In this document: piece after piece, positions 36,369-53,194 of the stretch
Layout: each line of letters begins with the position of its first letter
Numbering within the stretch: the stretch's first letter is position 1
Assembly: GCA_021496505.1 (NCBI GenBank)
Contig: CP053031.1
Coordinates: 3,216,001-3,280,000 of the forward strand
DNA: 64,000 nucleotides
Reading direction: 5' to 3'
From: Thermoleophilia bacterium SCSIO 60948
GTDB taxonomy: Bacteria; Actinomycetota; Thermoleophilia; Solirubrobacterales; 70-9
Position numbers and translations under genes: made by a program
The notes under the pieces: generated by a model
What the model saw: the letters and a program-made list of their open reading frames with translations, nothing else
What the model was told of the DNA's origin: nothing
The model's database searches: none

Positions 36369-36410
36369 TGGCGAGGGCCGGGATCGAACCGGCGACACCA
36401 CGATTTTCAG
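36369..36410 (-). repeat. 3' half of tRNA-Phe: attachment site of the ICE
   Basis: Read on the minus strand these 42 bases start at the anticodon loop CTGAAAA (anticodon GAA, Phe). They continue through the 3' strand of the anticodon stem, a 5-base variable loop, a perfect T-arm (GCCGG-TTCGATC-CCGGC) and the acceptor strand CCTCGCC with discriminator A. The 5' half (D-arm, 5' acceptor strand, anticodon 5' stem) is absent: pairing fails right after the loop. This is the duplicated core left when a tyrosine integrase inserts into a tRNA 3' end. It marks the left end of the element. Confidence 0.85.
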
Positions 36411-36662: not shown

Positions 36663-37580
36663 GTGCGGGGCTACATCGCTCATACCGACCACGGCTGGTG
36701 GCGCTTCCTGAAGGAGCGCCCAGCGCTGCGCGAGGTCAACTTCTGGCGCCCTGGTGGACGACGCCTTGCCGCGCTCGCTCCAGGAGAGCCGCTCTTCTTT
36801 CGCCTGAAGTCGCCGATCAACCGAATCGGCGGATTTGGGCTCTTCGCTCGCTTCGCGTCGCTACCGGTCTGGCGAGCCTGGGAGGTTTTCGGCGAGGCCA
36901 ACGGCGTCATCGACGAAGCGGCTCTCCTCGAGCGACTTGGTCGGCTTGCACGCCGGCCAGTCAGCATCGCCGACTCGATCGGCTGCATTGCCGTCAGCGA
37001 GTGCGTGTTTCTTGATCCCGACGACTGGATCGAACTACCAGCGAGCTTTCGCCCTCAGAACCTGTCCGGCTCGGCTCTCGATCTCGACCAGGGCGAGGGG
37101 CAGGCACTTTGGACGCAGTGTCTTGAGCGAGCGGCAACGAGCGCCGTCGAGTGGACCATCGAAGCTCTCGATCGCGAGCGTGCGGGCGAACCCCAGATCG
37201 TCATCCCGAGACTAGGGCAGGGTTCGTTCCGCCTCGCCGTCATGGACGCCTACGGTGGCGGCTGCGCGATCACCTCCGAGCACTCGATGCCGGCGCTCGA
37301 GGCGGCCCACATTCGGCCGTGGTCGCTAGGGGGGCAGCACGAGGTCTCCAACGGCCTGCCGCTACGACGCGACATTCACCGACTGTTCGATCTCGGCTAC
37401 ATGTCGGCACGAACCGATGGACGCGTTCTCGTCAGCCCGCGCCTGAAGTCAGAGTTCGCGAACGGCCACACCTACTACGCGCTTGAGAACCAGCAGCTCG
37501 TCCGCCCGGCGGATCCCACGGCCGCCCCTTCGCCGGAGCTCCTCGAGTGGCACTCGCAAACCGTGTTTCGCGCGTCGTAG
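36663..37580 (+). CDS. HNH endonuclease with N-terminal PUA-like reader domain
   Basis: A 305-residue protein. The C-terminal HNH nuclease (about residues 195-255) shows GGGCAITSEHSMPALEAAHI, RPWSLGGQHEVSNGLPLRRD and IHRLFDLGY: the His-Asn-His set of the family. The N-terminal 115 residues (WWRFLKERPALREVNFWRP, GEPLFFRLKSPINRIGGFG) resemble EVE/ASCH-type PUA domains, which read modified bases. This architecture suggests a modification-dependent restriction enzyme; that is an inference. The start is GTG at 36663; no strong Shine-Dalgarno. First cargo gene. Confidence 0.75.
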   Translation: MRGYIAHTDHGWWRFLKERPALREVNFWRPGGRRLAALAPGEPLFFRLKSPINRIGGFGLFARFASLPVWRAWEVFGEANGVIDEAALLERLGRLARRPVSIADSIGCIAVSECVFLDPDDWIELPASFRPQNLSGSALDLDQGEGQALWTQCLERAATSAVEWTIEALDRERAGEPQIVIPRLGQGSFRLAVMDAYGGGCAITSEHSMPALEAAHIRPWSLGGQHEVSNGLPLRRDIHRLFDLGYMSARTDGRVLVSPRLKSEFANGHTYYALENQQLVRPADPTAAPSPELLEWHSQTVFRAS

Positions 37581-37638
37581 CCCGTCACAGCTGCCGGTCA
37601 CCGCGGGCTCGGGTCCGGCTGCTGGTCTAGCTTCGAGA

Positions 37639-37676
37639 GCGACAACCTGTCGGGCGATCGCAGCCCGACTTGTCGC
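37639..37676 (+). promoter_or_regulatory. Two-step hairpin in the sigma-factor leader
   Basis: Outer arms GCGACA (37639-37644) and TGTCGC (37671-37676) enclose inner arms GTCGGGC (37649-37655) and GCCCGAC (37663-37669), both perfect. A TAGCTT that could be a -10 lies at 37628-37633. The structure would be at the 5' end of the sigma mRNA or an operator for it. Confidence 0.4.
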
Positions 37677-37706
37677 ACTTCTGGAGGCAGTCGGAATGGA
37701 GTACCC

Positions 37707-38300
37707 GTGAAAGTCGAGCGCGAAGTGCAGGACCGCCTGCACGCCGACGTCTGCGCCGGCGACCCGACCGCCTCGTCGCGGGTGTTCACGGTGCTGCTCG
37801 AGCCTCTGATCGACTGGCTCAGCTTCCGCTGGCGCAACGAGCGCGATGCCGAGCGGGTTCGCGACTTCGCGATCGACTCGATCATCGGCTACCTGGAGAG
37901 CCCCGAGCGCTACGACCCGGCCCGCGCTTCGCTTCTGACCTACCTACGCCTCGACGCGCACGGAGATCTTCTCAACGATCACGATCGCCGACAGCGCCAG
38001 CGCGAGCGACTTCAGGAGGCGGATGTCGAACTCGAGGACGAGATTCGGAACAGCTCCACAGATGAGTATCCATCCGACCGAGAGGAGCCCGAGTTGAGGC
38101 TGGTCGACGTTCGCGAAGCGCTGCCCGATGAGCGTGATCGCCGCGCCGTCTTCCTGATGATGGAGGGGGAGCGCTCCACCGAGGCGTTCGCTGAGGTCTG
38201 GGAGCTGACCGACCTGCCTGGGCAGGAACAGGCTGTCGACGTCAAGCGAAATAAGGACCGAGTCAAGGCGCGCCTGCGCCGCTTGAGGAGCGCGAAGTGA
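37707..38300 (+). CDS. Sigma-70-family (ECF-like) RNA polymerase sigma factor
   Basis: A 197-residue protein. Residues about 25-100 look like sigma region 2: helix FAIDSIIGYLESPERYDPAR, then SLLTYLRLDAHGDLLNDHDRRQRQR. The C-terminal part (about 140-197) is a region-4-like HTH. An acidic linker joins them. The start is GTG at 37707; a five-codon ATG frame (MEYP-stop) ends over it as GTGA, which may couple initiation. Its stop overlaps the ImmA/IrrE gene by 4 bases (GTGA), so the peptidase is its likely partner rather than a classic anti-sigma. Confidence 0.7.
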   Translation: MKVEREVQDRLHADVCAGDPTASSRVFTVLLEPLIDWLSFRWRNERDAERVRDFAIDSIIGYLESPERYDPARASLLTYLRLDAHGDLLNDHDRRQRQRERLQEADVELEDEIRNSSTDEYPSDREEPELRLVDVREALPDERDRRAVFLMMEGERSTEAFAEVWELTDLPGQEQAVDVKRNKDRVKARLRRLRSAK

Positions 38301-39388
38301 CTACCGCGCTGCGACATGCTGCCGATCGCGTCGCGTACGAGCCTGCGTTCCTCGCCAACGACCTACGGATCTTCGCCGAGCTCAATGACACCACCCGCGA
38401 TGCTCTCGAGGCTCGGCTCGCCCTCACAGACACGAAGTTCGATGAGCTGGCGCTCTGTCGCACGCCGCACCGAGACGGGCGCTTTCGCGACGACCTGCTC
38501 GCGATCGCGTCGCTGGTCGATGCCGACCCGATCGCGCTGGCAAACATGGTCAGGCTCGTAGACGCGTCGACTGCGCTGGCGAGCGCGCCGGCGACCAAGG
38601 TTGCGCCGATGCTCGCGGCGGCGAGGGAAATCGCACAGCAGCCCGTGCGTACCGAGCCGCCGAACGAAGGCCTGCAGGCCACCTGGCTGACGGAGGCGGT
38701 GGAGCTTCTGTGGGGGGATGCGGCCGCCGAGGACTTCCCGCGTGACGTTGAGCTCGCGCTTCTATGGCGGATGCCGCTCGCGATCATCGAACTGGAGCAG
38801 CTAAGCGGCGTCAACGTCGGCGCGTGGCTGTCGGCGCGCGGGGTCCACCTTCCGGTCCACGTGCCACCGGGGTCCCTGCACGGCGCATTGGTCGCGTTTG
38901 CCGGCAGCGGCGTGCTCTTCTTGGACGCGGCCGATGACCCAGCGCAGCGCCGGCTCACCGCTGCTCACGAAGGTGCCCACTTTGTCGTCGACTACTGGTT
39001 GCCGCGCCTGAAGCTCGCGCAACGCGCGCCGCAGCTGCTCGAGGTTGTCGACGGGTTGCGCGAACCGGATCCAGAAGACCACGTCGATGCACTCTTGGCG
39101 CGGATCCCCTTTGGGGTGCACACCCACCTCTTCGAGCGCGACGAGGCCGGCGGTACCCGCAACATCGCCGTCGATCACGCCGAGGATCGCGCCACCCAGG
39201 TGGCGTGGGAGCTGCTCGCTCCACGCGAGGTGGTCGCCGCGCGCACGGCGCGCGCCGATGAGTTCACCGTCGTGCGCACGCTCGAAGCCGAGTTCGGGCT
39301 TCCGCGCACGGCAGCCCGCGAGTACGCCGGGTACCTACGCGCGAGCGGAGATCAGCGGCGGGGAAGGCGGCGATTCGATTGGAGCTGA
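38297..39388 (+). CDS. ImmA/IrrE-family metallopeptidase
   Basis: A 363-residue protein with the zinc-peptidase motif HEGAH at residues 224-228 (context RRLTAAHEGAHFVVDYW). The ImmA/IrrE pattern precedes it: GVNVGAWLSARGVHLPVHVPP and SGVLFLDAADDP. The N-terminal 150 residues are helical and unrecognised. ImmA and IrrE cleave repressors (ImmR, DdrO) to start stress or excision responses. Here it is translationally coupled to a sigma factor, so its target may control this element's cargo. The GTG at 38297 overlaps the sigma stop. Confidence 0.8.
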   Translation: MTTALRHAADRVAYEPAFLANDLRIFAELNDTTRDALEARLALTDTKFDELALCRTPHRDGRFRDDLLAIASLVDADPIALANMVRLVDASTALASAPATKVAPMLAAAREIAQQPVRTEPPNEGLQATWLTEAVELLWGDAAAEDFPRDVELALLWRMPLAIIELEQLSGVNVGAWLSARGVHLPVHVPPGSLHGALVAFAGSGVLFLDAADDPAQRRLTAAHEGAHFVVDYWLPRLKLAQRAPQLLEVVDGLREPDPEDHVDALLARIPFGVHTHLFERDEAGGTRNIAVDHAEDRATQVAWELLAPREVVAARTARADEFTVVRTLEAEFGLPRTAAREYAGYLRASGDQRRGRRRFDWS

Positions 39389-39425
39389 TGTCGAACTTCT
39401 TCGTCCGCTCGGAAGAGAGGGGTGA

Positions 39426-40655
39426 ATGCTGAAGATGAGCGACGCTCCACAGCCCACCCCCGCGCCCGAGCCGGATCGCGACGCCGTTGACCTGGACGAG
39501 TTCTCCTCCGCCTTCGGTGCCGATTTGCTCGAAACGCTCGACGTGGGCACCTGGAAGCAGGGCCCCGACCTCGAGGCACTCAATCGTCGGCTGGCGAACG
39601 AGGTCGCAGAAGCCGTCGCCCAGGAGCGCGACGCCGTCGCCTTCATTCGCCGGGAGGTGTTCCCGCGGCTGCAGAACCAGGTCGATGCACCGGCCGAGGC
39701 CGGGGTCTACCAGGCACGTCCAGAGGACATCGACCGCGCCCTGCGAAACGCCCTCTTCAACGGCTGCGTCGAGGCCTGTGACGGCACGGTCGCCGAGCAC
39801 GACACGCTGGTGCTCACAGTGACGCAACTCGGCGTCTGTCTCGTCTCCTACCAGGGTGAGCAGCTCACGCTCAGCCAGCGCCTGTTTCGCCGCGATCTGC
39901 GCATCGACCAGCGCCGCGACCCACAGGCGCGGGTGCGCGAGTTGTTGGAGCGGCGAATGGGACGCTCGGCCATCGGCGTCCAGGACCCCCACGACACCCT
40001 CTCCGAGCTCGCCCGCCGCGGGATCATGGGGTACGCCGAGCGCGCGGTCCTGCTCGAGCAGTCGACCGCGCCGTGGCGCTTCGGTCACGGCTCGGTCGCC
40101 CCGTACGAGCTGCTCACCGGCGGCGGTCTCGTGAGCGAGGGCAAGATGCCGCTGCTCGATGCGAGCGGGGAGATGCTCCGCGGGCTAGTGCTCGACCACG
40201 AGCAGTTCATCTTCGTGCCCTCGACGATCTCAGATCGCTGGCTGATCACCGTGGGCGACGCGCTGCGCCCGCTTGAGTACGCAGTTGTCGAGTCGGCGGA
40301 ACGGCGGATGTCGGCCGTGGTCGAGGGCGGCCACTACGCCGGCGAGTACACCGAGCGTGCCCGAAAGCTCGTCGCCGATGTCGGACCGAAGATCGTCGTC
40401 GGCGTCTTTCGCGCAGCGCAGGGCGCGCCCGCACAGGTGTTCTACGCCCACCCCGATCACGTCCACGAGGCCGCGGTCATCGCGATGGCCGACTCCGTGC
40501 TGCAAGAGCACCGCGGCTTTCCGATGCTGATTGACATCGCCCATCACGTGGTCAACGCCACGATGGGCCACGACGGCTTTAAGGAGACGGTGCGCTCGGC
40601 CTACGTCGACGCCGGCGCCCCCTTCCGCTTCGCCCCGGAACGCGACACCCGATAG
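39426..40655 (+). CDS. NurA-like nuclease, HerA partner
   Basis: A 409-residue protein directly before a HerA ATPase (7-base gap). The end resembles NurA 5'-3' nucleases: YAHPDHVHEAAVIAMADSVL, GFPMLIDIAHHVVNATMG and a final Arg-rich segment. The first 150 residues are mostly acidic and helical. The full set of NurA catalytic acids is not clear, so the identification rests on the C-terminal pattern and the HerA neighbour. A second ATG lies at 39435. A GAGAGGGG Shine-Dalgarno precedes 39426. It would resect DNA with HerA. Confidence 0.6.
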   Translation: MLKMSDAPQPTPAPEPDRDAVDLDEFSSAFGADLLETLDVGTWKQGPDLEALNRRLANEVAEAVAQERDAVAFIRREVFPRLQNQVDAPAEAGVYQARPEDIDRALRNALFNGCVEACDGTVAEHDTLVLTVTQLGVCLVSYQGEQLTLSQRLFRRDLRIDQRRDPQARVRELLERRMGRSAIGVQDPHDTLSELARRGIMGYAERAVLLEQSTAPWRFGHGSVAPYELLTGGGLVSEGKMPLLDASGEMLRGLVLDHEQFIFVPSTISDRWLITVGDALRPLEYAVVESAERRMSAVVEGGHYAGEYTERARKLVADVGPKIVVGVFRAAQGAPAQVFYAHPDHVHEAAVIAMADSVLQEHRGFPMLIDIAHHVVNATMGHDGFKETVRSAYVDAGAPFRFAPERDTR

Positions 40656-40662
40656 GAGAATC

Positions 40663-42534
40663 ATGAGCGAGAACGACAACGATGCACAGCCGGACCAGCG
40701 CCCCGACCTCGGCCCCGTCGGGCCCGGACCAGCAGTCGCCCCAATCCCGGCCGCCGCGCTCGACGGGATTGACGCCGGGGAGGAATGGCAGCCCGACCCG
40801 CGCGACGCCGACGCGATCGGGCGGACGATGTTCGACACGCCGGGCAGCCAGGACAACACGCTCACGGTGCTGCTGCCGAAGGACTCGCTCACCCTGGTGC
40901 CGGCGCAGTCGCTGCTGCGGATCGAGAGCCGCTCAGACGAGCGGACCTACCTCGCGATTGTCACCGCCGGCCCTTTCGCCGAGCCCGACGGCCTGCGAGC
41001 GGACGCACCGACGATCGTCACAACAGCCGTCCGGGGCGCCACCGCGTTCGTGCCGCGGTACCACGGCCGCGTCCAGATCGAGATCCTCGGTGAGCGCCGC
41101 GGCAAGGCGCTGTCACCTCCGCGCTTCCGCCCGCTTCCCAACAGCCCGGTCTTCCTGCTCGACAGCGACGAGTCCCGCGAGGTACTCGAGCTTGGCGGCA
41201 GCATCCGCCTGGGAGTCGTCGCGGGCGACGACGAGCTGGTCGTCAACGTGCCCGCCGACAAGAAGGCGGTCCTGCCACGGCACACCGGCATCCTGGGCAC
41301 CACCGGCGGCGGAAAGTCGACCACGGTCTCGCGTCTGATCGACCAGGCCCAGCGCCAGGGATTCGCCGTGATTCTGCTCGACACCGAGGGGGAGTACACG
41401 CTGATGAACGAGCCGACCGAGGACCAGACGATGCTCGAGCTGCTCGAAGAGCGCGAGGAACAGCCCCACGGCATCGACGGCACGGAGCTCTACGTGCTCG
41501 CCGACAAGCGGACATCGAACCCGGGCCACCCGAACAAGAAGGAGTTCGACCTCTCCTTCGAGCGCTTCTCTCCCTTCATCGTCGAAGAGCTGCTCGATCT
41601 CACCAGCGCCCAGGCCGAACGCTTTACCGAGGCCTACGAAACCGCCAAGGCGCTGCTGCGCGAGCTGAACATCTTCCCGCGCCGCGACAGCGACGAGGAG
41701 AAGCGGATGGCGATCGAGCTCAACGAGATGGAGACGGGCTATCCGCGCATGCGCCTCGACCATGTGATCGACGTTGCGCGGATGATCCACGACTCCCTCT
41801 ACGGAAGCGACCTCGACGAGAGCGTGATGATGACGAGCGACTTTCGCTCGGGCGAGGGCCGCAGCAGGCTCAAGCAGAAGGCCGAGCTGGCCGCCGGCAA
41901 GCTCGGCAACAAGATCTCCTGGCGCGCCCTGCTGGGCCACCTTCACCGGCTCCGCCGCCTGCGGGTGTTCGACAGCACGGGCGGCCTGGATTACGACGCC
42001 CTGCTGCGGCCCGGTGGAGTCAGCATCTTTGACCTCTCTGACTCGGACTCCCCGCAGGTCAACAACCTCGTGATCGCCGACGTCCTGCGTGGGGTACAAG
42101 ACCGCCAGGACGCCGCGTATCGGAGCTTCGAGGACGGCGGCGATCAGCCGACGCGAGTGCTGATCGTGATCGAGGAGGCCCATGAGTTCCTCTCCGACGA
42201 GCGCGTCACGAAGATGCCGTTCCTGTTCCAGCAGGTCGCCCGGATCGCCAAGCGTGGTCGCAAGCGCTGGCTCGGGCTCGTCTTCGTCACCCAGCTGCCC
42301 CGCCACCTGCCACCGCAGGTGCTCGGGCTGGTCAACAACTGGGTGCTGCACCGGATCTCGGACGCCGACACGATCTCGCGGCTGCGGCGATCGGTGGCGG
42401 GCGTCGATGATGCCCTTTGGCAGCGGCTCCCGGGCCTTGCGCCCGGCCAGGCGATCGTCTCCTTCACATCGATGACGCGTCCGCTGCTCGCGGCCGTCGA
42501 CCCGACGCCGGCCAAGCTGCGAATGCTCGACTGA
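40663..42534 (+). CDS. HerA-like DNA-translocating ATPase
   Basis: A 623-residue HerA/FtsK-superfamily ATPase. The N-terminal beta-barrel (about residues 65-200, HAS-barrel-like) precedes Walker A GTTGGGKST (212-220). Walker B is RVLIVIEEAHEFL, followed by VARIAKRGRKRWLGLVFVTQLPRHL and the arginine-containing end block. Bacterial HerA forms hexameric pumps and pairs with nucleases in antiphage systems (HerA-SIR2, HerA-DUF4297) as well as with NurA. The ATG at 40663 has AGGAGA upstream. The longer frame lies within the nuclease gene. Confidence 0.9.
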   Translation: MSENDNDAQPDQRPDLGPVGPGPAVAPIPAAALDGIDAGEEWQPDPRDADAIGRTMFDTPGSQDNTLTVLLPKDSLTLVPAQSLLRIESRSDERTYLAIVTAGPFAEPDGLRADAPTIVTTAVRGATAFVPRYHGRVQIEILGERRGKALSPPRFRPLPNSPVFLLDSDESREVLELGGSIRLGVVAGDDELVVNVPADKKAVLPRHTGILGTTGGGKSTTVSRLIDQAQRQGFAVILLDTEGEYTLMNEPTEDQTMLELLEEREEQPHGIDGTELYVLADKRTSNPGHPNKKEFDLSFERFSPFIVEELLDLTSAQAERFTEAYETAKALLRELNIFPRRDSDEEKRMAIELNEMETGYPRMRLDHVIDVARMIHDSLYGSDLDESVMMTSDFRSGEGRSRLKQKAELAAGKLGNKISWRALLGHLHRLRRLRVFDSTGGLDYDALLRPGGVSIFDLSDSDSPQVNNLVIADVLRGVQDRQDAAYRSFEDGGDQPTRVLIVIEEAHEFLSDERVTKMPFLFQQVARIAKRGRKRWLGLVFVTQLPRHLPPQVLGLVNNWVLHRISDADTISRLRRSVAGVDDALWQRLPGLAPGQAIVSFTSMTRPLLAAVDPTPAKLRMLD

Positions 42535-42656
42535 CCTGACTCGCCCAGCCGGCCGGCCCGGCGAAGAGCTGATGAGCTGATCGGCGCCGCGCCCGATCCG
42601 TAGGCTGGTCGGCGGCACGGCTCGGAGCGGGCGCATTGAGCCATACTCGCTCGTCG

Positions 42657-43859
42657 ATGGCCGGCGCCCGAACCAGCTCAGACTCTCCGAAGCCTCCCCA
42701 GACACCGCTTCCGGTGCATCCGTTTCCGGCGCGGATGGCGCCCGAGCTCGCGCTCGAGCGACTACCGAAGGAGCCGGCCCGCGTGCTCGACCAGATGATG
42801 GGCTCGGGGACGATCCCCGTGCTCGCCGGAGCCGCCGGCCACTCGGCGACCGGCTATGACCTCGACCCGCTCGCGCTCCTGATCGCCGAGGTCTGGGGTC
42901 GACCGCTCGAGGAGGAGGCGTACCTGCTCGCCGCCGGGGACGTCGCTCAGGAAGCGCGCGAAGCCGAGCCCGCGGAGGTGGCGGTCGAGGACGCCGAGAC
43001 ACTCGAGTTCATCGAGCGCTGGTTCGACGAGGTCGCGCGCGGGCGGCTCGCTGCGCTCACCGAGGCGATAGCGGGGCAGCAAGATGTTCTTCAGCCGGCG
43101 CTGTGGTGCGCGTTCTCAAGGCTCATCATCACCAAGGACCGCGGCGCCTCCCTCGCACGAGATGTCTCTCACAGCCGCCCCCACAAGGTCCGGGAGCGCA
43201 CCGACTTCGACCCGATCGCCAACTACCTGCGATCCGCGCGCGAGGTCGCGAGGCGACACGCGACCCTGAGCGAGACGCGACCGGATCCCGAGGACTTGGC
43301 CTTCGGGCGCGTCGACGCCCGCGAGCTTCCCCTCGAGGACGACTCGATCGACATGGCGATGACCTCGCCGCCCTACCTATCGGCGATCGATTACCTGCGC
43401 GGGCACCGAATGAGTCTCGTCTGGATGGGCTACACGCTGAGCGAGCTGCGCGATCTGCGCGGCAGCGTCGTCGGCGCGGAGCGTGCCCGCCACGACGGCG
43501 ACGACCACGAGGAGCTGATCGCCGAGACGCTCGGCAAGGACGCCCCAGCGCGCACCCGCGGCGTACTGCGCCGCTACCTCTATGACCTCCACGCGATCAT
43601 GAAGGAGACCACCCGCGTCCTTCGGGCGGGCGGATCGGCCACGTTCGTGATCGCCGACGCGACCCTGTTCGGGATCCCCGTCGCCCTCGGCGACGTCGTC
43701 GACAAGCTCGCGCGCAAGGTCGGGCTCGAGCGCACCGAGCGGATCGAGCGCGAGCTGCCCGCCGACCGGCGCTACCTACCGCCGCCCGGGCGCGGTCGGA
43801 CCAGTGACCTCACGCGCCGAATGCGCCACGAGGTCTGCCTCGGCTACCTCGCCCCGTAG
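42657..43859 (+). CDS. DNA methyltransferase, TSPPY type
   Basis: A 400-residue methyltransferase. The SAM site comes first (LDQMMGSGTIPVLAG), after HPFPARMAPELA; the catalytic TSPPY follows at about residue 235 (MAMTSPPYLSAIDYLRGHRM). TSPPY and this order suggest N4-cytosine methylation, but N6-adenine is possible. The ending RTSDLTRRMRHEVCLGY is typical of the family. The ATG at 42657 is chosen; a TTG at 42636 is possible. Placed after HerA, it could protect host DNA from the NurA-HerA module or the HNH enzyme. Confidence 0.85.
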   Translation: MAGARTSSDSPKPPQTPLPVHPFPARMAPELALERLPKEPARVLDQMMGSGTIPVLAGAAGHSATGYDLDPLALLIAEVWGRPLEEEAYLLAAGDVAQEAREAEPAEVAVEDAETLEFIERWFDEVARGRLAALTEAIAGQQDVLQPALWCAFSRLIITKDRGASLARDVSHSRPHKVRERTDFDPIANYLRSAREVARRHATLSETRPDPEDLAFGRVDARELPLEDDSIDMAMTSPPYLSAIDYLRGHRMSLVWMGYTLSELRDLRGSVVGAERARHDGDDHEELIAETLGKDAPARTRGVLRRYLYDLHAIMKETTRVLRAGGSATFVIADATLFGIPVALGDVVDKLARKVGLERTERIERELPADRRYLPPPGRGRTSDLTRRMRHEVCLGYLAP

Positions 43860-43916
43860 CTCGGCGTCGCACTTCGCTTGCCCGCTCGGAAGGGAGTTGA
43901 CGAAGGCGATCATGCG

Positions 43917-43927
43917 AAGGAGGTGAT
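43917..43927 (+). promoter_or_regulatory. Perfect Shine-Dalgarno AAGGAGGTGAT
   Basis: These 11 bases are the full complement of the 16S rRNA 3' end, the strongest ribosome site in the window. They lie 5 bases before the ATG at 43933, which decides the frame of the small basic protein. Confidence 0.7.
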
Positions 43928-43932
43928 GGCAG

Positions 43933-44070
43933 ATGGCGAGGAACCGCAAGACCTCGGCGAGGGCGGCGAAGGCGGCGTCGAAGGTGCTGCGCGACAAGCG
44001 AACGAGCAGGGCGTCGAAGAAGGCCGCAGGCAGCGCGCTCTCGCAGCGAGCGCCGAAGCGCGGCAGTTAG
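43933..44070 (+). CDS. Small, very basic 45-residue protein
   Basis: It begins MARNRKTSARAAKAASKVLR and ends in GSALSQRAPKRGS. It is rich in Lys, Arg, Ala and Ser, with no acidic run, like a histone-H1-type tail. A family of short proteins with the pattern 'KTS..AA.KASKVLRD..T...SK.AAGSALSQ' occurs in many bacteria, often near mobile elements; function unknown. A DNA- or RNA-binding role is likely from composition. The perfect Shine-Dalgarno predicts strong expression. A longer overlapping ORF in another frame (43,878-44,087) has no such support. Confidence 0.7.
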   Translation: MARNRKTSARAAKAASKVLRDKRTSRASKKAAGSALSQRAPKRGS

Positions 44071-44077
44071 CGGGACC

Positions 44078-44175
44078 GCGAGTCTGAGGTCTTCTAACGT
44101 AAGCGTTAGAAACCCTTAGACTCGCTTTCCCCTGCCTCCACGGCGTGCAGCGACGCCAAGTCTGAGACTTTCTAA
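44078..44175. repeat. Three copies of a 17-base motif upstream of the ATPase operon
   Basis: Copy A AGTCTGAGGTCTTCTAA is at 44081-44097, copy C AGTCTGAGACTTTCTAA at 44159-44175 (same strand, 15 of 17 identical), and copy B is inverted at 44106-44122. A and B form a long imperfect inverted repeat (44078-44125, arms GCGAGTCT/AGACTCGC and TTCTAACG/CGTTAGAA). The region is AT-rich relative to its surroundings. This fits a regulator or replication-initiator binding site controlling the operon at 44214, or a terminator for the basic-protein gene combined with it. Confidence 0.6.
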
Positions 44176-44213
44176 GACACCAACACCCCTCCACAGAAAC
44201 AGCTAGAAGCCGA

Positions 44214-45398
44214 GTGAACAAGCGCGAGAACCCCTACACCCCCGGTGCCGGCAGAAAGCCGCCGACGCTCGCCGGCCGCGACGGCGACCTCGAGAACTTC
44301 CAGGCGCTGATCGAGCGGCTCGGCACCGGCGGCTACGAGCGCAGCCTCGTCTACTCAGGGCTGCGCGGGGTCGGCAAGACGGTGCTGTTGATGGAATTCG
44401 ACGTGCTCGCGAGTGAGGCGGGCTGGGCGACCACCGACGTCCAGGAGGTCGGCTCGCAGCCCGACTTCCGCGTCACCTTCGCTCGCATGGCAGCCCGGCT
44501 GCTGCGCGAGATGAGCCGCAAGCACCGGATCAAGGATCGCGTCGACCGCGCCCTCGGGGTGGTCAAGGCGTTCAGCCTCGCGGTGCCGGGCGGCGTGCAG
44601 ATCAAGCTCGACGTCGAGGCCGCCTCCGGGGTCGCCGACTCCGGCGACCCCGAGCAGGACCTCGCCGACCTGCTGACCGAGATCGGCGAGGTCGCCCAGA
44701 GCACCAACACCGGCGCGCTCTTCCTGGTCGACGAGATGCACAACCTCGACACGCCCTCGCTGGCGGCAATCTGCATCGCGCTGCAGGCGATCAGCCGCCG
44801 CACCCTACCGGTGGCGCTCGTCGGCGCCGGGCTCCCCGACCTCCAGGTCCGTCTGATCTCCGCCAAGCCTTACGCCGACCGGCTCTTTCAGTACCACGAG
44901 CTGGGCGGCCTCCCGGACCCGGCGGCGCGCTCGGCGTTGATCGGACCGGCGACGACCCTGGGCGTGACCTATGACGAGGCCACCGCCCGCAAGGTCGTCG
45001 CCGAGGCCGCCGGCTACCCCTACTTCATCCAGGAGTACGGCCTCGAGCTCTGGAACCACGCCGACGACTCTCCGATCGACGACGACGACCTCGAGACCGT
45101 GCGCGAGCTGGTGCGTGACACGCTCGCCCGCAGCTTCTTCGGCACCCGCTTTCAGATGGCCACCGACGCCGAGCAGCGCTACCTCGCCGCGATGGCCGCG
45201 GCCGGCGAGCCGCCCTACCGCGTCGGCGACGTCGCGTCGGCCTACGGCGCCCGCGACCAACGCGGCGTCTCAGTGCATCGCGACGGTCTGATCCAGAAGG
45301 GGCTGGTGTGGAGCCCGCGCCGCGGCCAGGTCGATTTCACGGTGCCGCTCTTCGCCGAATACCTGCGCGACAACCACCCGCTCGAGAGCTTTGAGTAG
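44214..45398 (+). CDS. AAA ATPase with winged-helix tail (Orc1/Cdc6-like)
   Basis: A 394-residue STAND/AAA-type ATPase. Walker A is GLRGVGKTVLL (about residues 49-59) and Walker B is GALFLVDEMHNL (about 165-176). The C-terminal 110 residues look like a winged helix (AAGEPPYRVGDVASAYG, VSVHRDGLIQKGLVW). It starts NPYTPGAGRKPPTLAGRDGDLENF, a common opening in actinobacterial ATPases. The GTG at 44214 is the start. It heads the second cargo operon, downstream of the three-copy motif. Confidence 0.8.
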   Translation: MNKRENPYTPGAGRKPPTLAGRDGDLENFQALIERLGTGGYERSLVYSGLRGVGKTVLLMEFDVLASEAGWATTDVQEVGSQPDFRVTFARMAARLLREMSRKHRIKDRVDRALGVVKAFSLAVPGGVQIKLDVEAASGVADSGDPEQDLADLLTEIGEVAQSTNTGALFLVDEMHNLDTPSLAAICIALQAISRRTLPVALVGAGLPDLQVRLISAKPYADRLFQYHELGGLPDPAARSALIGPATTLGVTYDEATARKVVAEAAGYPYFIQEYGLELWNHADDSPIDDDDLETVRELVRDTLARSFFGTRFQMATDAEQRYLAAMAAAGEPPYRVGDVASAYGARDQRGVSVHRDGLIQKGLVWSPRRGQVDFTVPLFAEYLRDNHPLESFE

Positions 45399-45407
45399 GT
45401 CGCGGCG

Positions 45408-46823
45408 ATGAGCACGTCTCGCTACGACGCGATCCGCGACCGGCTCCCGACCCCCATCGGCAAGCAAGCCGACGTCGTTGCGCTCGCTCCCAGCGGACAC
45501 CACGTCGTCCTCGGAACCGCCGGCTCCGGGAAGACGACGATGGCGATGCTGCGGGCGATGTTCCTCGCCGACCCGCGCGCCGAGCACCACGGCCGCACGC
45601 TACTCGTCACCTACAACCGAGCGCTCCTGGCCTTCTTGCGCCAGGTCATTACCGGCGACGACGACCTGCTCGAGGTCCGCAACTACCACCACTTCGCCCT
45701 CGGGTATCTAAAGTCGCGCGGCCTGCCGACCGACCGCGCCGTCGCCCAGGGTGGCGAGCGGCGAAACCTGATCGCCACCGCGTTGGGTGCCACGCGCGAG
45801 GGGCGCTCGGACGCGGTGCTCGATCGCGGCACGAGCTTCTTCTCGAGCGAGTTCGCCTGGATGGGGCGCAACGGGATCGTGAGCGAGGACGACTACCTCG
45901 CCGCCGATCGCGTGGGCCGCATCCACCCGCTGACGCGTGACCAGCGCGCGGCCGTCTACGCGGCGCGGCTGGGCTACGAGCGGGCACGCGAGGAGGCCGG
46001 TCTGAGCTACGACTGGGATGACCTGGCGACGGCGGTCGTCGACCAGTTCGAGGCCGACGACGAGCCCCGTCGCTACCGCCACATCGTGATCGACGAGGGC
46101 CAAGACTTCTCGGTGCAGATGCTGCGCAGCCTGGTCAGCGCGATGGATCCCGAGGGCTCCTTCACCCTGTTCGGCGACGCGGCGCAGCAGATCTACGGTC
46201 GCGGGGTCTCGTGGCGAAGCGCGGGGATCGGGGTCAGCAAGGTCTGGGAGTTCGCCCACAACTACCGCAACTCGGCGCCGATCGTGCGGCTCGCGCAGGC
46301 GATCGCGGCGATGCCCTACTACCGCGACGTCGAGGACCTGGTCGAGCCCGACGAGGACGTCGACGAGGGGCCACCGCCGACGATGCGAGTGTTCGAGAAC
46401 CCGAGCGACGAACGCGACTGGGTGATCGAGCAGGCACAGGCTCTCGGACGCACGGGTACGGTCGGCGTGCTCTTTCGCCGCGGCGTCGATGCCGGGCGCT
46501 TCGTTCGAGCCTGCCGAGGCGCCGAGCAGCTCAATCGCGACACCCCACTGTGGAACGCTCAGCCGGGGATCTGGAGCGCGACCGTGAACGCCGCCAAGGG
46601 CTTCGAGTTCCAGAGCGTGATCCTCCCCGAGCTCAGCACCGACTGGTGGCCCGAGCCCCAGGCTGTCAGCGCCGACGGCGAGGAGGAGGCGACGGTCGCG
46701 GATGGCCGGCTGCTGTACGTGGCCGTGACGCGCGCGCGTCAGAACCTGCTGATGACGGCGACTGGAACGATCACCGAGCTACTTCCAAATGAGGAGGGGC
46801 TATGGGTGCAGAGCAAGGGATAA
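45408..46823 (+). CDS. UvrD-like superfamily 1 helicase
   Basis: A 471-residue SF1 helicase. Walker A is LGTAGSGKTTMAM (about residues 35-47), Walker B IVIDEGQDFSVQML, motif IV-like NYRNSAPIVRLAQ, motif V SATVNAAKGFEFQSVILPEL and motif VI LLYVAVTRARQNLLM. It lacks the long insert domains of full UvrD/Rep, like the compact helicases of defence loci. It ends overlapping the DarT-like gene by 22 bases. Confidence 0.88.
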   Translation: MSTSRYDAIRDRLPTPIGKQADVVALAPSGHHVVLGTAGSGKTTMAMLRAMFLADPRAEHHGRTLLVTYNRALLAFLRQVITGDDDLLEVRNYHHFALGYLKSRGLPTDRAVAQGGERRNLIATALGATREGRSDAVLDRGTSFFSSEFAWMGRNGIVSEDDYLAADRVGRIHPLTRDQRAAVYAARLGYERAREEAGLSYDWDDLATAVVDQFEADDEPRRYRHIVIDEGQDFSVQMLRSLVSAMDPEGSFTLFGDAAQQIYGRGVSWRSAGIGVSKVWEFAHNYRNSAPIVRLAQAIAAMPYYRDVEDLVEPDEDVDEGPPPTMRVFENPSDERDWVIEQAQALGRTGTVGVLFRRGVDAGRFVRACRGAEQLNRDTPLWNAQPGIWSATVNAAKGFEFQSVILPELSTDWWPEPQAVSADGEEEATVADGRLLYVAVTRARQNLLMTATGTITELLPNEEGLWVQSKG

Positions 46824-47533
46824 CCGAGATCGAACACCTCGCCCGCGAGCGCGAGATCACGCGGCTCTGTCATCTGACGCCGTTTCAGAACCTGATCCAC
46901 ATCGCCCGCGGCGATGGGCTTCGCTCGACGTTCGAGCTTTCCGGCGACGCGCGCGCCGCGTTCACCCAGCAGGACCTCGAGCGCCTCGACGGTCATCCCG
47001 ACCACATCAGCTGCTCGATCGAGTACCCCAACGTCTGGTATCTGCGCCAGCGCCGCAGGCGCGCGACCCCGCTGCAGAAGCTGTTCCCCGATTGGGTCTG
47101 CGTCTTGATCGAGCCGCACCATCTCTGGCGAGAGGACACGCTGGTCTGCTTTCGCAACGCCGCCGCCGCCGGCGGTGCCTACATCGACCGCGGACCGACG
47201 GCGTTCGAGGCGATGTTCGCCGACTCCGTCGTTGGCAGCGGCGGGCGCACCTACACGCGCGGGTCGAAGCCGCTCAGCTGTCCGACCGACGACCAGGCCG
47301 AGGTCCTGATCGCCAAGCAGATCCCGCTTGCCGACGCCGGTCGCGTCGTCGTCGCCGACACCGCACAAGCCTCGCGAGTCCTAGTAGGACTCGACATCTT
47401 GCAAGTCCCGCCCGACACCTTCGAGCTCATCGTCGCCCCCAAGCTCTTTCAGATCAGCCTGAGCGGCGCCCTCAACGCCGGTCGGCGGCCGACCGAGACC
47501 CCCTGGACCCACGGAGAAGACGATGCCGCCTGA
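46802..47533 (+). CDS. DarT-like (DUF4433) ADP-ribosyltransferase
   Basis: A 243-residue protein with the DarT pattern: LCHLTPFQNLIHIARGDGL near residue 22 (NAD-contacting His/Leu/Thr block) and CPTDDQAEVLIAKQIPL at 160-176 with the probable catalytic Glu167. DarT transfers ADP-ribose from NAD onto thymidine (DarT2-type) or guanosine in single-stranded DNA and is toxic unless reversed. A GAGGAGGGG Shine-Dalgarno lies inside the helicase gene. It overlaps the glycohydrolase gene by 11 bases. Target base and toxicity are inferred from the family. Confidence 0.72.
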   Translation: MGAEQGITEIEHLAREREITRLCHLTPFQNLIHIARGDGLRSTFELSGDARAAFTQQDLERLDGHPDHISCSIEYPNVWYLRQRRRRATPLQKLFPDWVCVLIEPHHLWREDTLVCFRNAAAAGGAYIDRGPTAFEAMFADSVVGSGGRTYTRGSKPLSCPTDDQAEVLIAKQIPLADAGRVVVADTAQASRVLVGLDILQVPPDTFELIVAPKLFQISLSGALNAGRRPTETPWTHGEDDAA

Positions 47534-49286
47534 GCGCGACCGGATCACCGGCGGCCTTCTGGGCGTCGCGGTCGGCGACGCGCTCGGCTGGCCGATGGAG
47601 GACCGAGGCAACCGCGTTGGCGGTACCGCGAACGTAAAGCCCGACTGGGCCCTGGTCCCTTGGAGGCGCCGGGAGGGCGGCGGCTACGGGCCTCACGAGC
47701 AGCCCGTCGACGCCGGCTCGGTGTCCGACGACACGCAGCTCACTCTCGCCGTCGCCCGCAGCGTCCTTCATCGTGACGACTGGCTGGCCTACTGGACCCG
47801 GGTGGAGCTTCCCCTCTGGACGGTCTACGAGCGTGGCGGAGGCGGGGCGACCAAGCGTGCGGCGCAGACCTGGCTTCGTGGCCACCCACCCTGGCACGAC
47901 GCCGAGAAGCCGAAGGCGGTCAGCAGCTACTTCGAAGCGGGGGGAAATGGCACGGCGATGCGCTGCCTCGGCCACTGCGCCGTCGCCGCAGATTGGGACG
48001 AGCTAGCCCTCCGGCTCGACGAGGATGGAGCGACCACACACGGCCACCCCCGAGCGCTACTCGGCGCTCGCGTCTATGGATGGGCCGCATTGCACGGCCT
48101 TCACCGTGGCTCGAAGCTGCGCTACGGCGAGCTGATCGAGCGTGTGCTCGACGCGGAGCCAGAATGGAGCAGGCCGCCACGACTCTCTGACGATTGGCAT
48201 CTTGCCGCCGAGCGCGCCGCTCGGGACTACGAGGGGGAGTGGCGGAGAACCGTTGACGAGCTGCGCCGCGCTCTTGAAATCTCGCGGGCCGGGATCGGCG
48301 AAGGGGCGGTGGCCGTCGATCATCCGGTGCTCGAGGACCTGGGCGCCTTTGGCCAAGCCTCGGGGGCCGGCACCGTCACCGCGGTGGCCTCGATCTTCCT
48401 TGCCGCGCGCTACCTGAGTCAGCCCCAGCAGGGGTTGCTGGCCGCGGCCTTCGCGCGCGGTGCCGACACTGACACGTTGGCGGCGATGACCGGGGGGCTG
48501 CTTGGACTCCTCCTGGGAGGCGACTGGCTGCGACCGCTCGCCGGCCAGGTCCAGGACTCCCAATACATCCAGGAGCTCGCTCGTCAACTGGAACTCCGTC
48601 GAGCTGGGGATCGAATCGATTGGGCCTTCACGACCCAGGAGCGCACGCGCCTTTACCGCTGGCTCGACGAGGCCCGACCGGGCGCCGAGGGCGACCTGCC
48701 GCCGTTCGGGCGCATCCTTCTGGCTGACGTCGTCGACTTGCCGGCCCGGACGCAGTTCGTTCGGAGCTGGGCGCTGCAAACCGATCTCGGTCAATCACTC
48801 CTGATCAAGCGCTACGACAAGGGTCGAGACGGCCAGCCGCGCTGGATATCGATCTCGCGGCCTGCCGCAAGCAACGGAGTTGAGGAAGCGACCGGGGCGG
48901 TGCAGGAGCCGAGTCCGCGGGTCGAGCCGCGAGTTGGCCTGGTGTTGCGCGTCAGCGACATCGACCGGGCGAAGGCCTTTTACACCGAGGTAGTTGGTCT
49001 GTCGGTGCGCCGCGCTACCGACCGATTCATCAGCTTCGGATGGCTTGCGCTCGAGCCCGACGAGCGCGCCGGGCAGCTCTCATTGAAATCAGGCGATGAG
49101 GCGCTGATGCCGGCAATCCGGCTCTACGTCGCCGCGGACGAAGTCATTCAGATTCGCGGACACTTCGACGAGTTCGGGCTTCAGACGACCGAACTACAGA
49201 GATCGACTCATCGCGGCTTTCGCTCACATGATCCAGACGGCCACCCGATCGAGGTCGTCGCGCGCAACGGCGCTCCGACGCCGTAG
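47523..49286 (+). CDS. ADP-ribosylglycohydrolase (DraG/ARH) with C-terminal VOC domain
   Basis: A 587-residue fusion. Residues 1-350 are an ADP-ribosylglycohydrolase: GGLLGVAVGDALG at 10-22, metal-binding SDDTQLT at 68-74, GGNGTAMRC, THGHP and ARGADTDTLAAMTGG at about 300. About 350-465 is unassigned. Residues about 465-580 are a VOC unit (VGLVLRVSDIDRAKAFYTEVVGL ... SHDPDGHPIEVVARN). DraG-type enzymes remove ADP-ribose, so it is the probable antitoxin of the overlapping DarT-like gene. The role of the VOC domain is unknown. Confidence 0.8.
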   Translation: MPPERDRITGGLLGVAVGDALGWPMEDRGNRVGGTANVKPDWALVPWRRREGGGYGPHEQPVDAGSVSDDTQLTLAVARSVLHRDDWLAYWTRVELPLWTVYERGGGGATKRAAQTWLRGHPPWHDAEKPKAVSSYFEAGGNGTAMRCLGHCAVAADWDELALRLDEDGATTHGHPRALLGARVYGWAALHGLHRGSKLRYGELIERVLDAEPEWSRPPRLSDDWHLAAERAARDYEGEWRRTVDELRRALEISRAGIGEGAVAVDHPVLEDLGAFGQASGAGTVTAVASIFLAARYLSQPQQGLLAAAFARGADTDTLAAMTGGLLGLLLGGDWLRPLAGQVQDSQYIQELARQLELRRAGDRIDWAFTTQERTRLYRWLDEARPGAEGDLPPFGRILLADVVDLPARTQFVRSWALQTDLGQSLLIKRYDKGRDGQPRWISISRPAASNGVEEATGAVQEPSPRVEPRVGLVLRVSDIDRAKAFYTEVVGLSVRRATDRFISFGWLALEPDERAGQLSLKSGDEALMPAIRLYVAADEVIQIRGHFDEFGLQTTELQRSTHRGFRSHDPDGHPIEVVARNGAPTP

Positions 49287-51882: not shown

Positions 51883-52218
51883 TTAGCTCTGCTCATAGGG
51901 CAGCAGCTCCACCGCGTCAGCGGTCACCGAGCGGGTCCCGCCGCGCGCGGCTCGACGGTCGGGCTCGTGTGACTCGGGGGCGTTGACGGTCAGACGGCGA
52001 CGGACCTCGACCAGATCGAAGCGAAGCCGGCCCTGCCGGCCGCCGAGGCGAATCGCGCCCAGTTCGCGAGCGTGTGCGTAGACCCAGTCGCGCTCGACGG
52101 AGAGTCTGCGCGCGAGCTCTGCCGCATCGACGAGGCGAATGCCGTGGGATTCCGTGTCGGCGAGGAGTTCGACGACGCGCCGAGCGATCGGCTCGATGTC
52201 CTCCGCATCAAGCGTCAT
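51883..52218 (-). CDS. Excisionase-like helix-turn-helix protein
   Basis: A 111-residue protein with an HTH_17/MerR-like fold: RLVDAAELARRLSVERDWVYAHARELG (about 28-54) and GRLRFDLVEVRRRL. Such proteins next to an integrase usually act as excisionases or regulate int. The first 25 residues are acidic; the last 30 are Arg-rich. The ATG at 52218 lies within the end of the methyltransferase gene (11-base overlap). Confidence 0.75.
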   Translation of the reverse strand: MTLDAEDIEPIARRVVELLADTESHGIRLVDAAELARRLSVERDWVYAHARELGAIRLGGRQGRLRFDLVEVRRRLTVNAPESHEPDRRAARGGTRSVTADAVELLPYEQS

Positions 52219-53194
52219 CGGACTGCGACGAGTGCTCGAGGCGGGCGCGCGCGATGTCAGCGTAGGCCGGCTCGCGCTCGATGCCGAGAAAGCACCGGCC
52301 CTCGAGCACGGCGGCGCAGCCGGTCGACCCCGAGCCGCTGAACGGATCGAGCACGGTGCCGCCATCAGGGACGGCGAGCCGGACCAGCCAGCGCATCAGC
52401 GCGAGCGGCTTGACCGTCGGGTGCGGGTTTGTCGCGGGCGGCGGCTTCCGGGCGTGCTTTGCGTTCGGGAACAGGTCGAGGGCTCGCGGCGGGAGCGCCT
52501 CGCAGCCGGCGTCGCGCTCGCGGCGTGACGCCTTCGGACAGTAGAAGAGGCGGCTCGCTTGACGGGCGGCTCGCGAGGAGGCGCGCGAGGACCCGGCGGC
52601 GGCGTCGATGATCCCGACCGGGCAGCCCACCGCGCAGCGACCTGAGCGGCAACCGGGTGCGTGCGTGAGCGTGACGTTGGCTGGGAAGCGGCCCTCGACC
52701 CGGCAGGCATCCGTGTTGAGAGCGCCGGTCCCGTTGGCGGCGAGGTTGCGCTCGAGCGTGCCGGCGAGCGGCTTGCGGGCGAGCAGGATCGGCTCCCAGC
52801 CCGGCTTCAGCGATGCGGCCCTGCCGCCGGGCAGTTTGCGGGACTTCGGCATCCCGGTCCCGTAGAGCCAGATCAGGCAGTCGCGCAGCTCGAAGCCAGC
52901 CTCCTCGATCCCGCAGGCGAGGCGGTGGGCGGTGCGCGGCGCGCTGAAGGCGAGCAGGTGTGCGCCGGGCTTGAGCGCGCCGATCGTGGCGCTGGCCCAG
53001 GCCCTGGTCCAGGCTTGGTAGGACTCAGCGGCGGCGAGGCGCTTGCCGTTGAGGCGGGCGGCGGCTTCGCGGATCGCGCGCCCGTCCCAGCGCTCGCCCT
53101 GGAAGTCGATCCCGTAGGGCGGGTCGGTGACGATCGCGTCGGCCGACCCGGGCTCGAGCGAGCCCAGGACCTCGAGGCAGTCGCCCTCGATCAG
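52208..53194 (-). CDS. DNA methyltransferase (DPPY type) without a standard start codon
   Basis: The N-terminus reads LIEGDCLEVLGSLEPGSADA, then IVTDPPYGIDFQGERWDG with catalytic DPPY; the SAM site VLDPFSGSGSTGCAAVLEG is near the end (beta-class order, adenine-N6 or cytosine-N4). The frame is open from 53,272 to 52,208, but the only ATG (52,852) is far inside, after DPPY. No ATG, GTG or TTG lies between the upstream TAG (53,273) and DPPY; I use the CTG at 53,194 as the most likely start. The same TAG ends the Replic_Relax gene, in the same frame. Stop-codon mutation, read-through or a CTG start are all possible. Confidence 0.65.
   Translation of the reverse strand: MIEGDCLEVLGSLEPGSADAIVTDPPYGIDFQGERWDGRAIREAAARLNGKRLAAAESYQAWTRAWASATIGALKPGAHLLAFSAPRTAHRLACGIEEAGFELRDCLIWLYGTGMPKSRKLPGGRAASLKPGWEPILLARKPLAGTLERNLAANGTGALNTDACRVEGRFPANVTLTHAPGCRSGRCAVGCPVGIIDAAAGSSRASSRAARQASRLFYCPKASRRERDAGCEALPPRALDLFPNAKHARKPPPATNPHPTVKPLALMRWLVRLAVPDGGTVLDPFSGSGSTGCAAVLEGRCFLGIEREPAYADIARARLEHSSQSDDA

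Follow-up and report, generated by a model that had tools for sequence, protein, structure and literature searches.

HerA-NurA serves as a DNA end-resection machine in archaea and Deinococcus, and Tdp is a phosphorothioation (PT)-dependent defence system. TdpAB likewise combines a HerA-type ATPase with a nuclease of the NurA fold, and is the closest working analogue of the cassette described here, whose NurA and HerA proteins match chain G of 8wfd and 8wet, respectively; the cassette differs in adding genes for a sigma-like protein and an HTH-M78 protein, and in having an optional DNA methyltransferase (MTase). HerA is also joined to a nuclease or effector in HerA-DUF4297 and HerA-SIR2. In ICETh1, an integrative element of Thermus, the TdtA operon is arranged NurA-HerA-methylase (PMC5365140), and both nurA and tdtA are needed for transjugation, the export of DNA to neighbours (PMC5365140, PMC7767461). 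HerA translocases are likewise recruited to counter-invader nucleases in the HerA/FtsK capture systems, for which REases, Orc/Cdc6 and wHTH are reported, with NurA unmentioned in the text (Rakesh et al. 2024, PMC10853773). On the regulatory side, CapH-CapP and DdrO-IrrE (PprI) each pair an HTH-like protein with an M78 peptidase, and single-stranded DNA (ssDNA) activates PprI and CapP to cleave their repressors (PMC10904395).

The window, i.e. the whole stretch of 64,000 nucleotides analysed from Thermoleophilia bacterium SCSIO 60948, carries a cassette of which the first-pass annotation had recognised three genes, for a NurA-like nuclease, a HerA ATPase and a TSPPY methyltransferase, as a module on one strand. 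These open reading frames do follow one another on the + strand, and the unit was found to extend upstream, beyond those three genes, to a sigma-like and an HTH-M78 gene. The features are as follows.

37707-38300, + strand: sigma-70 (ECF)-like protein, 197 aa, a constant cassette member
38297-39388, + strand: HTH-like domain (about 38297-38650) fused to an M78 (IrrE/CapP-type) metallopeptidase
39426-40655, + strand: predicted NurA-fold nuclease, 409 aa, of a divergent family (AlphaFold model, Foldseek, VIA)
40663-42534, + strand: HerA/FtsK-type ATPase, 623 aa (DUF87, PDB HerA match, Walker motifs)
42636-43859, + strand: MTase, 407 aa, with motif I before TSPPY, an optional cassette member
44214-45398, + strand: AAA_16 (ORC/Cdc6-like) ATPase, a possible accessory (AAA_16, E 5.4e-13)

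The sigma-like and HTH-M78 genes overlap by 4 bases, the latter ends 37 bases upstream of NurA, and 7 bases separate the NurA stop from the HerA start, an ATG within a longer TTG ORF. Region 37707-42534 of the window thus represents the conserved block sigma-HTH-M78-NurA-HerA, with the HTH and peptidase parts fused. Pfam, NCBIfam and PADLOC identified the HerA, MTase and M78 proteins and, weakly, the sigma-like protein; a profile scan revealed no kinase among the cassette genes. A search for palindromic operators upstream of the sigma-like gene gave short imperfect repeats only, and a literature search found no paper describing this gene set.

Sequence comparison of the NurA-like protein with Pfam (including NurA, PF09376), PADLOC, NCBIfam and the PDB sequences gave zero matches, and it was therefore by fold that the protein was recognised as NurA. 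Its AlphaFold model had a mean pLDDT of 87.3, and the best ten PDB matches to the model in Foldseek were all NurA, with 2ygk at the top (E 8.6e-8). In VIA-align, the model superposed on Thermococcus NurA 9x1m with a Z of 17.4 (rmsd 5.1, 285 residues aligned), followed by 2ygk (Z 17.3), chain G of 8wfd, a structure of TdpAB (Z 14.5) and Deinococcus NurA (Z 12.0); Endonuclease V and Argonaute ranked next (Z 9-10), as expected of RNase H folds. The predicted fold is thus that of NurA, as the first-pass annotation had supposed, and not a non-nuclease fold. Compared at the profile level with ten canonical NurA proteins of bacteria, the family aligned over the C-terminal GFP/GYP motif only (probability 6%), and we consider the product of 39426-40655, on the basis of its modelled structure, to be a NurA of a new sequence family. 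Pfam NurA was found neither in the genome of this organism nor in its class.

The catalytic acids of NurA, for which a search had been suggested, were recovered in part. In an alignment of 37 homologues, Asp119 (35/37), Glu205 (37/37) and Asp356 (37/37) are conserved, but the second DG motif of canonical NurA seems to read WRMGHG here, and the usual second metal-site Asp appears to be His (H or Q across the family) according to our own mapping, made by secondary structure and not by superposed coordinates. Since the second metal-site Asp appears to be replaced, the protein is probably, but not certainly, catalytically active. The two Corallococcus copies (L038 and L039) have Asn at the Asp119 position, suggesting that their NurA may be inactive or altered.

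The product of 40663-42534 is, by its sequence, certainly a HerA, as the first-pass annotation had named it: it matches DUF87 of Pfam (E 1.4e-18) and, among the PDB sequences, HerA 9x1l (2.5e-20) and TdpA 8wet (1.2e-8), and has Walker A (GTTGGGKST) and Walker B (VIEEAHEF) motifs. It scored below the cut-offs of the NCBIfam equivalog for the housekeeping repair pair (79 bits, cut-off 800) and of the models for the antiphage HerA proteins of HerA-SIR2 and HerA-DUF4297 (69 and 52 bits, cut-offs 800 and 850). These scores, together with the RNase H fold of the NurA nuclease, bear out the earlier proposal that the system is distinct from HerA-SIR2 and HerA-DUF4297.

The sigma-like protein of the window matched the NCBIfam sigma70-ECF model with an E of 3.5e-7 (30 bits, cut-off 42.9), and its relatives matched Sigma70_r2 (best 2.4e-6), that of L011 above the Pfam cut-off; it is possibly not a genuine sigma factor. 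The product of 38297-39388 matched Peptidase_M78 (E 8.7e-6), and its HExxH motif and Glu296 are invariant across 22 relatives, pointing to an intact HExxH...E site of the CapP/IrrE type; the structures nearest to the M78 profile were CapP and IrrE (about 1e-3). The HTH-like domain is helical and gave weak XRE/CapH matches, of which the top one was the CapH N-terminal domain (Z 3.7, Foldseek E > 1). HTH and M78 are a single protein in the window and some other loci, and separate genes in most relatives. The M78 family was present in 4/396 genomes of the phylum, each of which also has the module NurA (n=5 genomes with NurA), and it is therefore dedicated to the cassette; such co-occurrence would have a chance probability of 5e-9 if the draw of genomes was the same.

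The NurA-like protein is rare, being found in 5/396 genomes drawn from the phylum with the window counted (~1%). A scan of the collection yielded 36 loci, most of them from MAGs, in about ten phyla: Chloroflexota, Thermomicrobiota, Planctomycetota, Acidobacteriota, Myxococcota, Nitrospirota, Thermodesulfobacteriota, Pseudomonadota, Actinomycetota and Ca. Lindowbacteria. One copy (L022) belongs to a cultured strain, Thermogemmatispora tikiterensis. Clustering of the neighbouring genes showed the same order throughout, from the sigma-like gene through the small HTH-like gene, M78 and NurA to HerA. NurA and HerA are adjacent in every relative whose contig runs on, a linkage far beyond chance, and profiles detected M78 in 37/38 loci and the sigma-like gene in 35/38, the exceptions being L030, on a contig that is cut, L045, which is divergent and has a contig beginning at NurA, and L042, in which HerA is also in broken pieces. 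Relatives of the NurA-like protein were not found in viral contigs and plasmids, nor were HerA relatives found in the plasmid set. A separate Pfam NurA was already present in 11 of the 18 cassette-host genomes tested.

The MTase of the window has motif I (DQMMGSGT, with Gln for the usual Pro) followed by an intact TSPPY, and matched MTase_II of PADLOC (E 1.2e-21), so that its naming as a TSPPY methyltransferase holds. Its family adjoins the cassette in 21/38 loci, 15 times upstream on the same strand, three times divergently upstream and three times downstream (L012, L045 and the window). It is missing from at least ten loci that have long flanks on either side, a motif scan for other MTases in the MTase-less loci gave chance-like matches only, and presence and absence are scattered over the NurA tree; the MTase is therefore an exchangeable, optional accessory of the cassette. 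Divergent MTase subgroups occupy the same slot beside the cassette, as if the specificity had been swapped. As read by eye, relatives of the window MTase also adjoin unrelated systems. For example, an MTase with 42% identity lies beside a HATPase-like gene, without NurA-HerA, in L077 (G105), and at 2457000-2473000 of the organism's own genome (L078) two MTase genes lie by an AAA ATPase and a HATPase-like protein of 1500 aa, likely another defence locus. The AAA_16 homologue adjoins the MTase in one relative only, L012 (E 2e-94).

The cassette lies within an element integrated at tRNA-Phe. Its ends are a 3' part of this tRNA gene at 36370-36409 of the window and the repeat of that part in an intact tRNA-Phe some 96 kb off, at genome position 3348323; it also has integrase and VirB4-like genes, and is ICE-like and probably conjugative. 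Several other genes were noted on it. On the conjugation side, 52208-52852 encodes a second DNA methylase (N6_N4_Mtase, 9.3e-20). Between the AAA_16 and DarT genes is a short UvrD-like helicase of 471 aa (45408-46823), and the DarT-like DNA ADP-ribosyltransferase gene (46802-47533) overlaps one whose product joins an ADP-ribosylglycohydrolase to a glyoxalase-like domain (47523-49286); the usual partner of DarT is a macrodomain protein. Upstream of the cassette lies an HNH nuclease gene (36663-37580), the C-terminal part of whose product resembles a model of restriction enzymes for phosphorothioated DNA (70 bits, cut-off 180).

Beyond this genome, CRISPR-Cas genes adjoin the cassette in 11/36 loci, including Cas4-Cas1 fusions, Cas2, Cas3, Cas6 and Cas7, and Cas10 with RAMP in L044. 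Of the 22 loci in which 7.5 kb or more of sequence follows HerA, nine have CRISPR-Cas, for which the chance probability is about 2e-10 at a base rate of 2% per locus, our own generous estimate; the adjacency is thus far above chance. It is based on cas genes and not on arrays, of which only one was found within the loci (L023). In two loci the neighbours are end-processing genes instead: L029 (13139-21140) lies beside genes for a helicase, an Mre11-like protein and an SMC-type ATPase, and L040 (12206-18669) beside AddAB-like genes.

In its NurA and HerA proteins, the cassette is nearest to HerA-NurA complexes, TdpAB included. It differs from HerA-DUF4297 and HerA-SIR2 in that its nuclease is an RNase H-fold NurA, and from CapH-CapP and DdrO-IrrE in that it adds a sigma-like gene and that its effector is HerA-NurA and not CBASS or a repair regulon. 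Its likeness to the TdtA operon, compared by description and not by sequence, lies in the gene order on an integrative element; that operon functions in DNA donation and has a type IIG restriction enzyme upstream, and no sigma or peptidase gene has been described in it. MADS, whose several genes include one for an MTase (mad2) and one for a HerA-like ATPase (mad8), was also considered and rejected: the window MTase and HerA match these two models weakly, the sigma-like, M78 and NurA proteins matched no mad model up to an E of 10, and a mad8 search of 296 genomes of the phylum gave generic FtsK/HerA-type matches only. We place the cassette among the HerA-nuclease systems, not in a separate category, and call it an undescribed form because no paper on it was found and no searched profile covers its NurA.

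The constant order in about ten phyla, the M78 linkage, the closeness of NurA and HerA to HerA-NurA complexes, the CRISPR-Cas neighbours and the location on an element at tRNA-Phe support the reading that the cassette is an inducible DNA-degrading defence carried by a mobile element, with a protease switch and methylation as optional protection, to which we give an even chance of being correct. The end-processing neighbours in L029 and L040 fit repair equally and therefore count against it, as do the weak HTH assignment, the doubt over the sigma-like protein and the apparent His at the second metal-site position of NurA. A more specific version, in which the cassette is a distinct immune system whose DNA-sensing M78 protease frees a dedicated sigma factor to arm a HerA-NurA shredder, is put forward tentatively and may well be wrong. 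From the observed parts and their linkage, we infer the following steps from sensing to induction. The HTH protein and M78 peptidase would form a switch of the DdrO-IrrE or CapH-CapP kind, a proposal supported by the M78 profile being nearest to CapP/IrrE, the HTH domain being weakly nearest to CapH, and the activation of PprI and CapP by ssDNA. ssDNA arising from DNA damage, phage replication or HerA-NurA resection would activate the peptidase, which would cleave either its HTH partner or an inhibitor of sigma; the sigma-like factor thus freed would raise cassette expression, and the HerA ring would pump duplex DNA into the NurA dimer, where NurA would cut it. Resection would produce further ssDNA to feed the sensor, so that the system may be self-inducing. 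The MTase, where present, would probably shield self DNA or set the target, as an optional safety layer; in loci without it, the switch, a co-resident CRISPR or another host MTase would have to limit self-damage.

The strongest rivals to the defence reading are a plain restriction model and repair. The first-pass annotation had proposed a restriction design in which the MTase marks self DNA and HerA-NurA destroys what is unmarked, comparable to TdpAB with methyl in place of phosphorothioate. The operon-like NurA-HerA-MTase run and its defence-type surroundings agree with that proposal, as do the MTase beside the cassette in 21 loci with its motifs conserved, the apparent swapping of subgroups in one slot and the match of the NurA model to the TdpAB nuclease chain. 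However, the constant MTase-nuclease linkage of classical restriction-modification is absent, and the MTase family also occurs beside unrelated systems. Because the MTase is exchangeable, the model of an obligate self-mark is weakened: methylation cannot be a universal self-mark, although it may still be one in the MTase-bearing members, and restriction-modification proper is an improbable account of the cassette. No conserved restriction enzyme of the MTase's own accompanies it, since the HNH nuclease is carried by no cassette relative, and no phosphorothioation gene was found among the ten proteins scanned at 36663-49286.

A DNA-damage-induced repair operon, in which the IrrE-like peptidase and sigma factor turn on HerA-NurA end resection after breaks, would accord with the role of HerA-NurA in archaea and Deinococcus, with damage sensing by IrrE/PprI through ssDNA (PMC10904395) and with the Mre11/SMC and AddAB-like neighbours; the patchy presence, mobile location, CRISPR neighbours and facultative MTase, and the separate NurA that most of the tested hosts already have, make it improbable. 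Still less can be said for a DNA-donation module like that of ICETh1, which we consider very unlikely: the gene order, the requirement for nurA and tdtA in transjugation (PMC5365140, PMC7767461) and the ICE-like element would suit it, but the TdtA operon has no described sigma or peptidase genes, the element has a VirB4-like conjugation ATPase of its own, many relatives lie by CRISPR-Cas, and NurA and HerA were unmatched in the plasmid set.

The NurA family described here is undetected by the profile libraries searched and would be missed by annotation relying on them. Machines that pair HerA with a nuclease turn up repeatedly, in DNA export and repair as well as in defence. The cassette ties HerA-NurA to a sigma-like factor and a protease of the damage-sensing type in about ten phyla, and may thereby make such a switch testable in one small operon.
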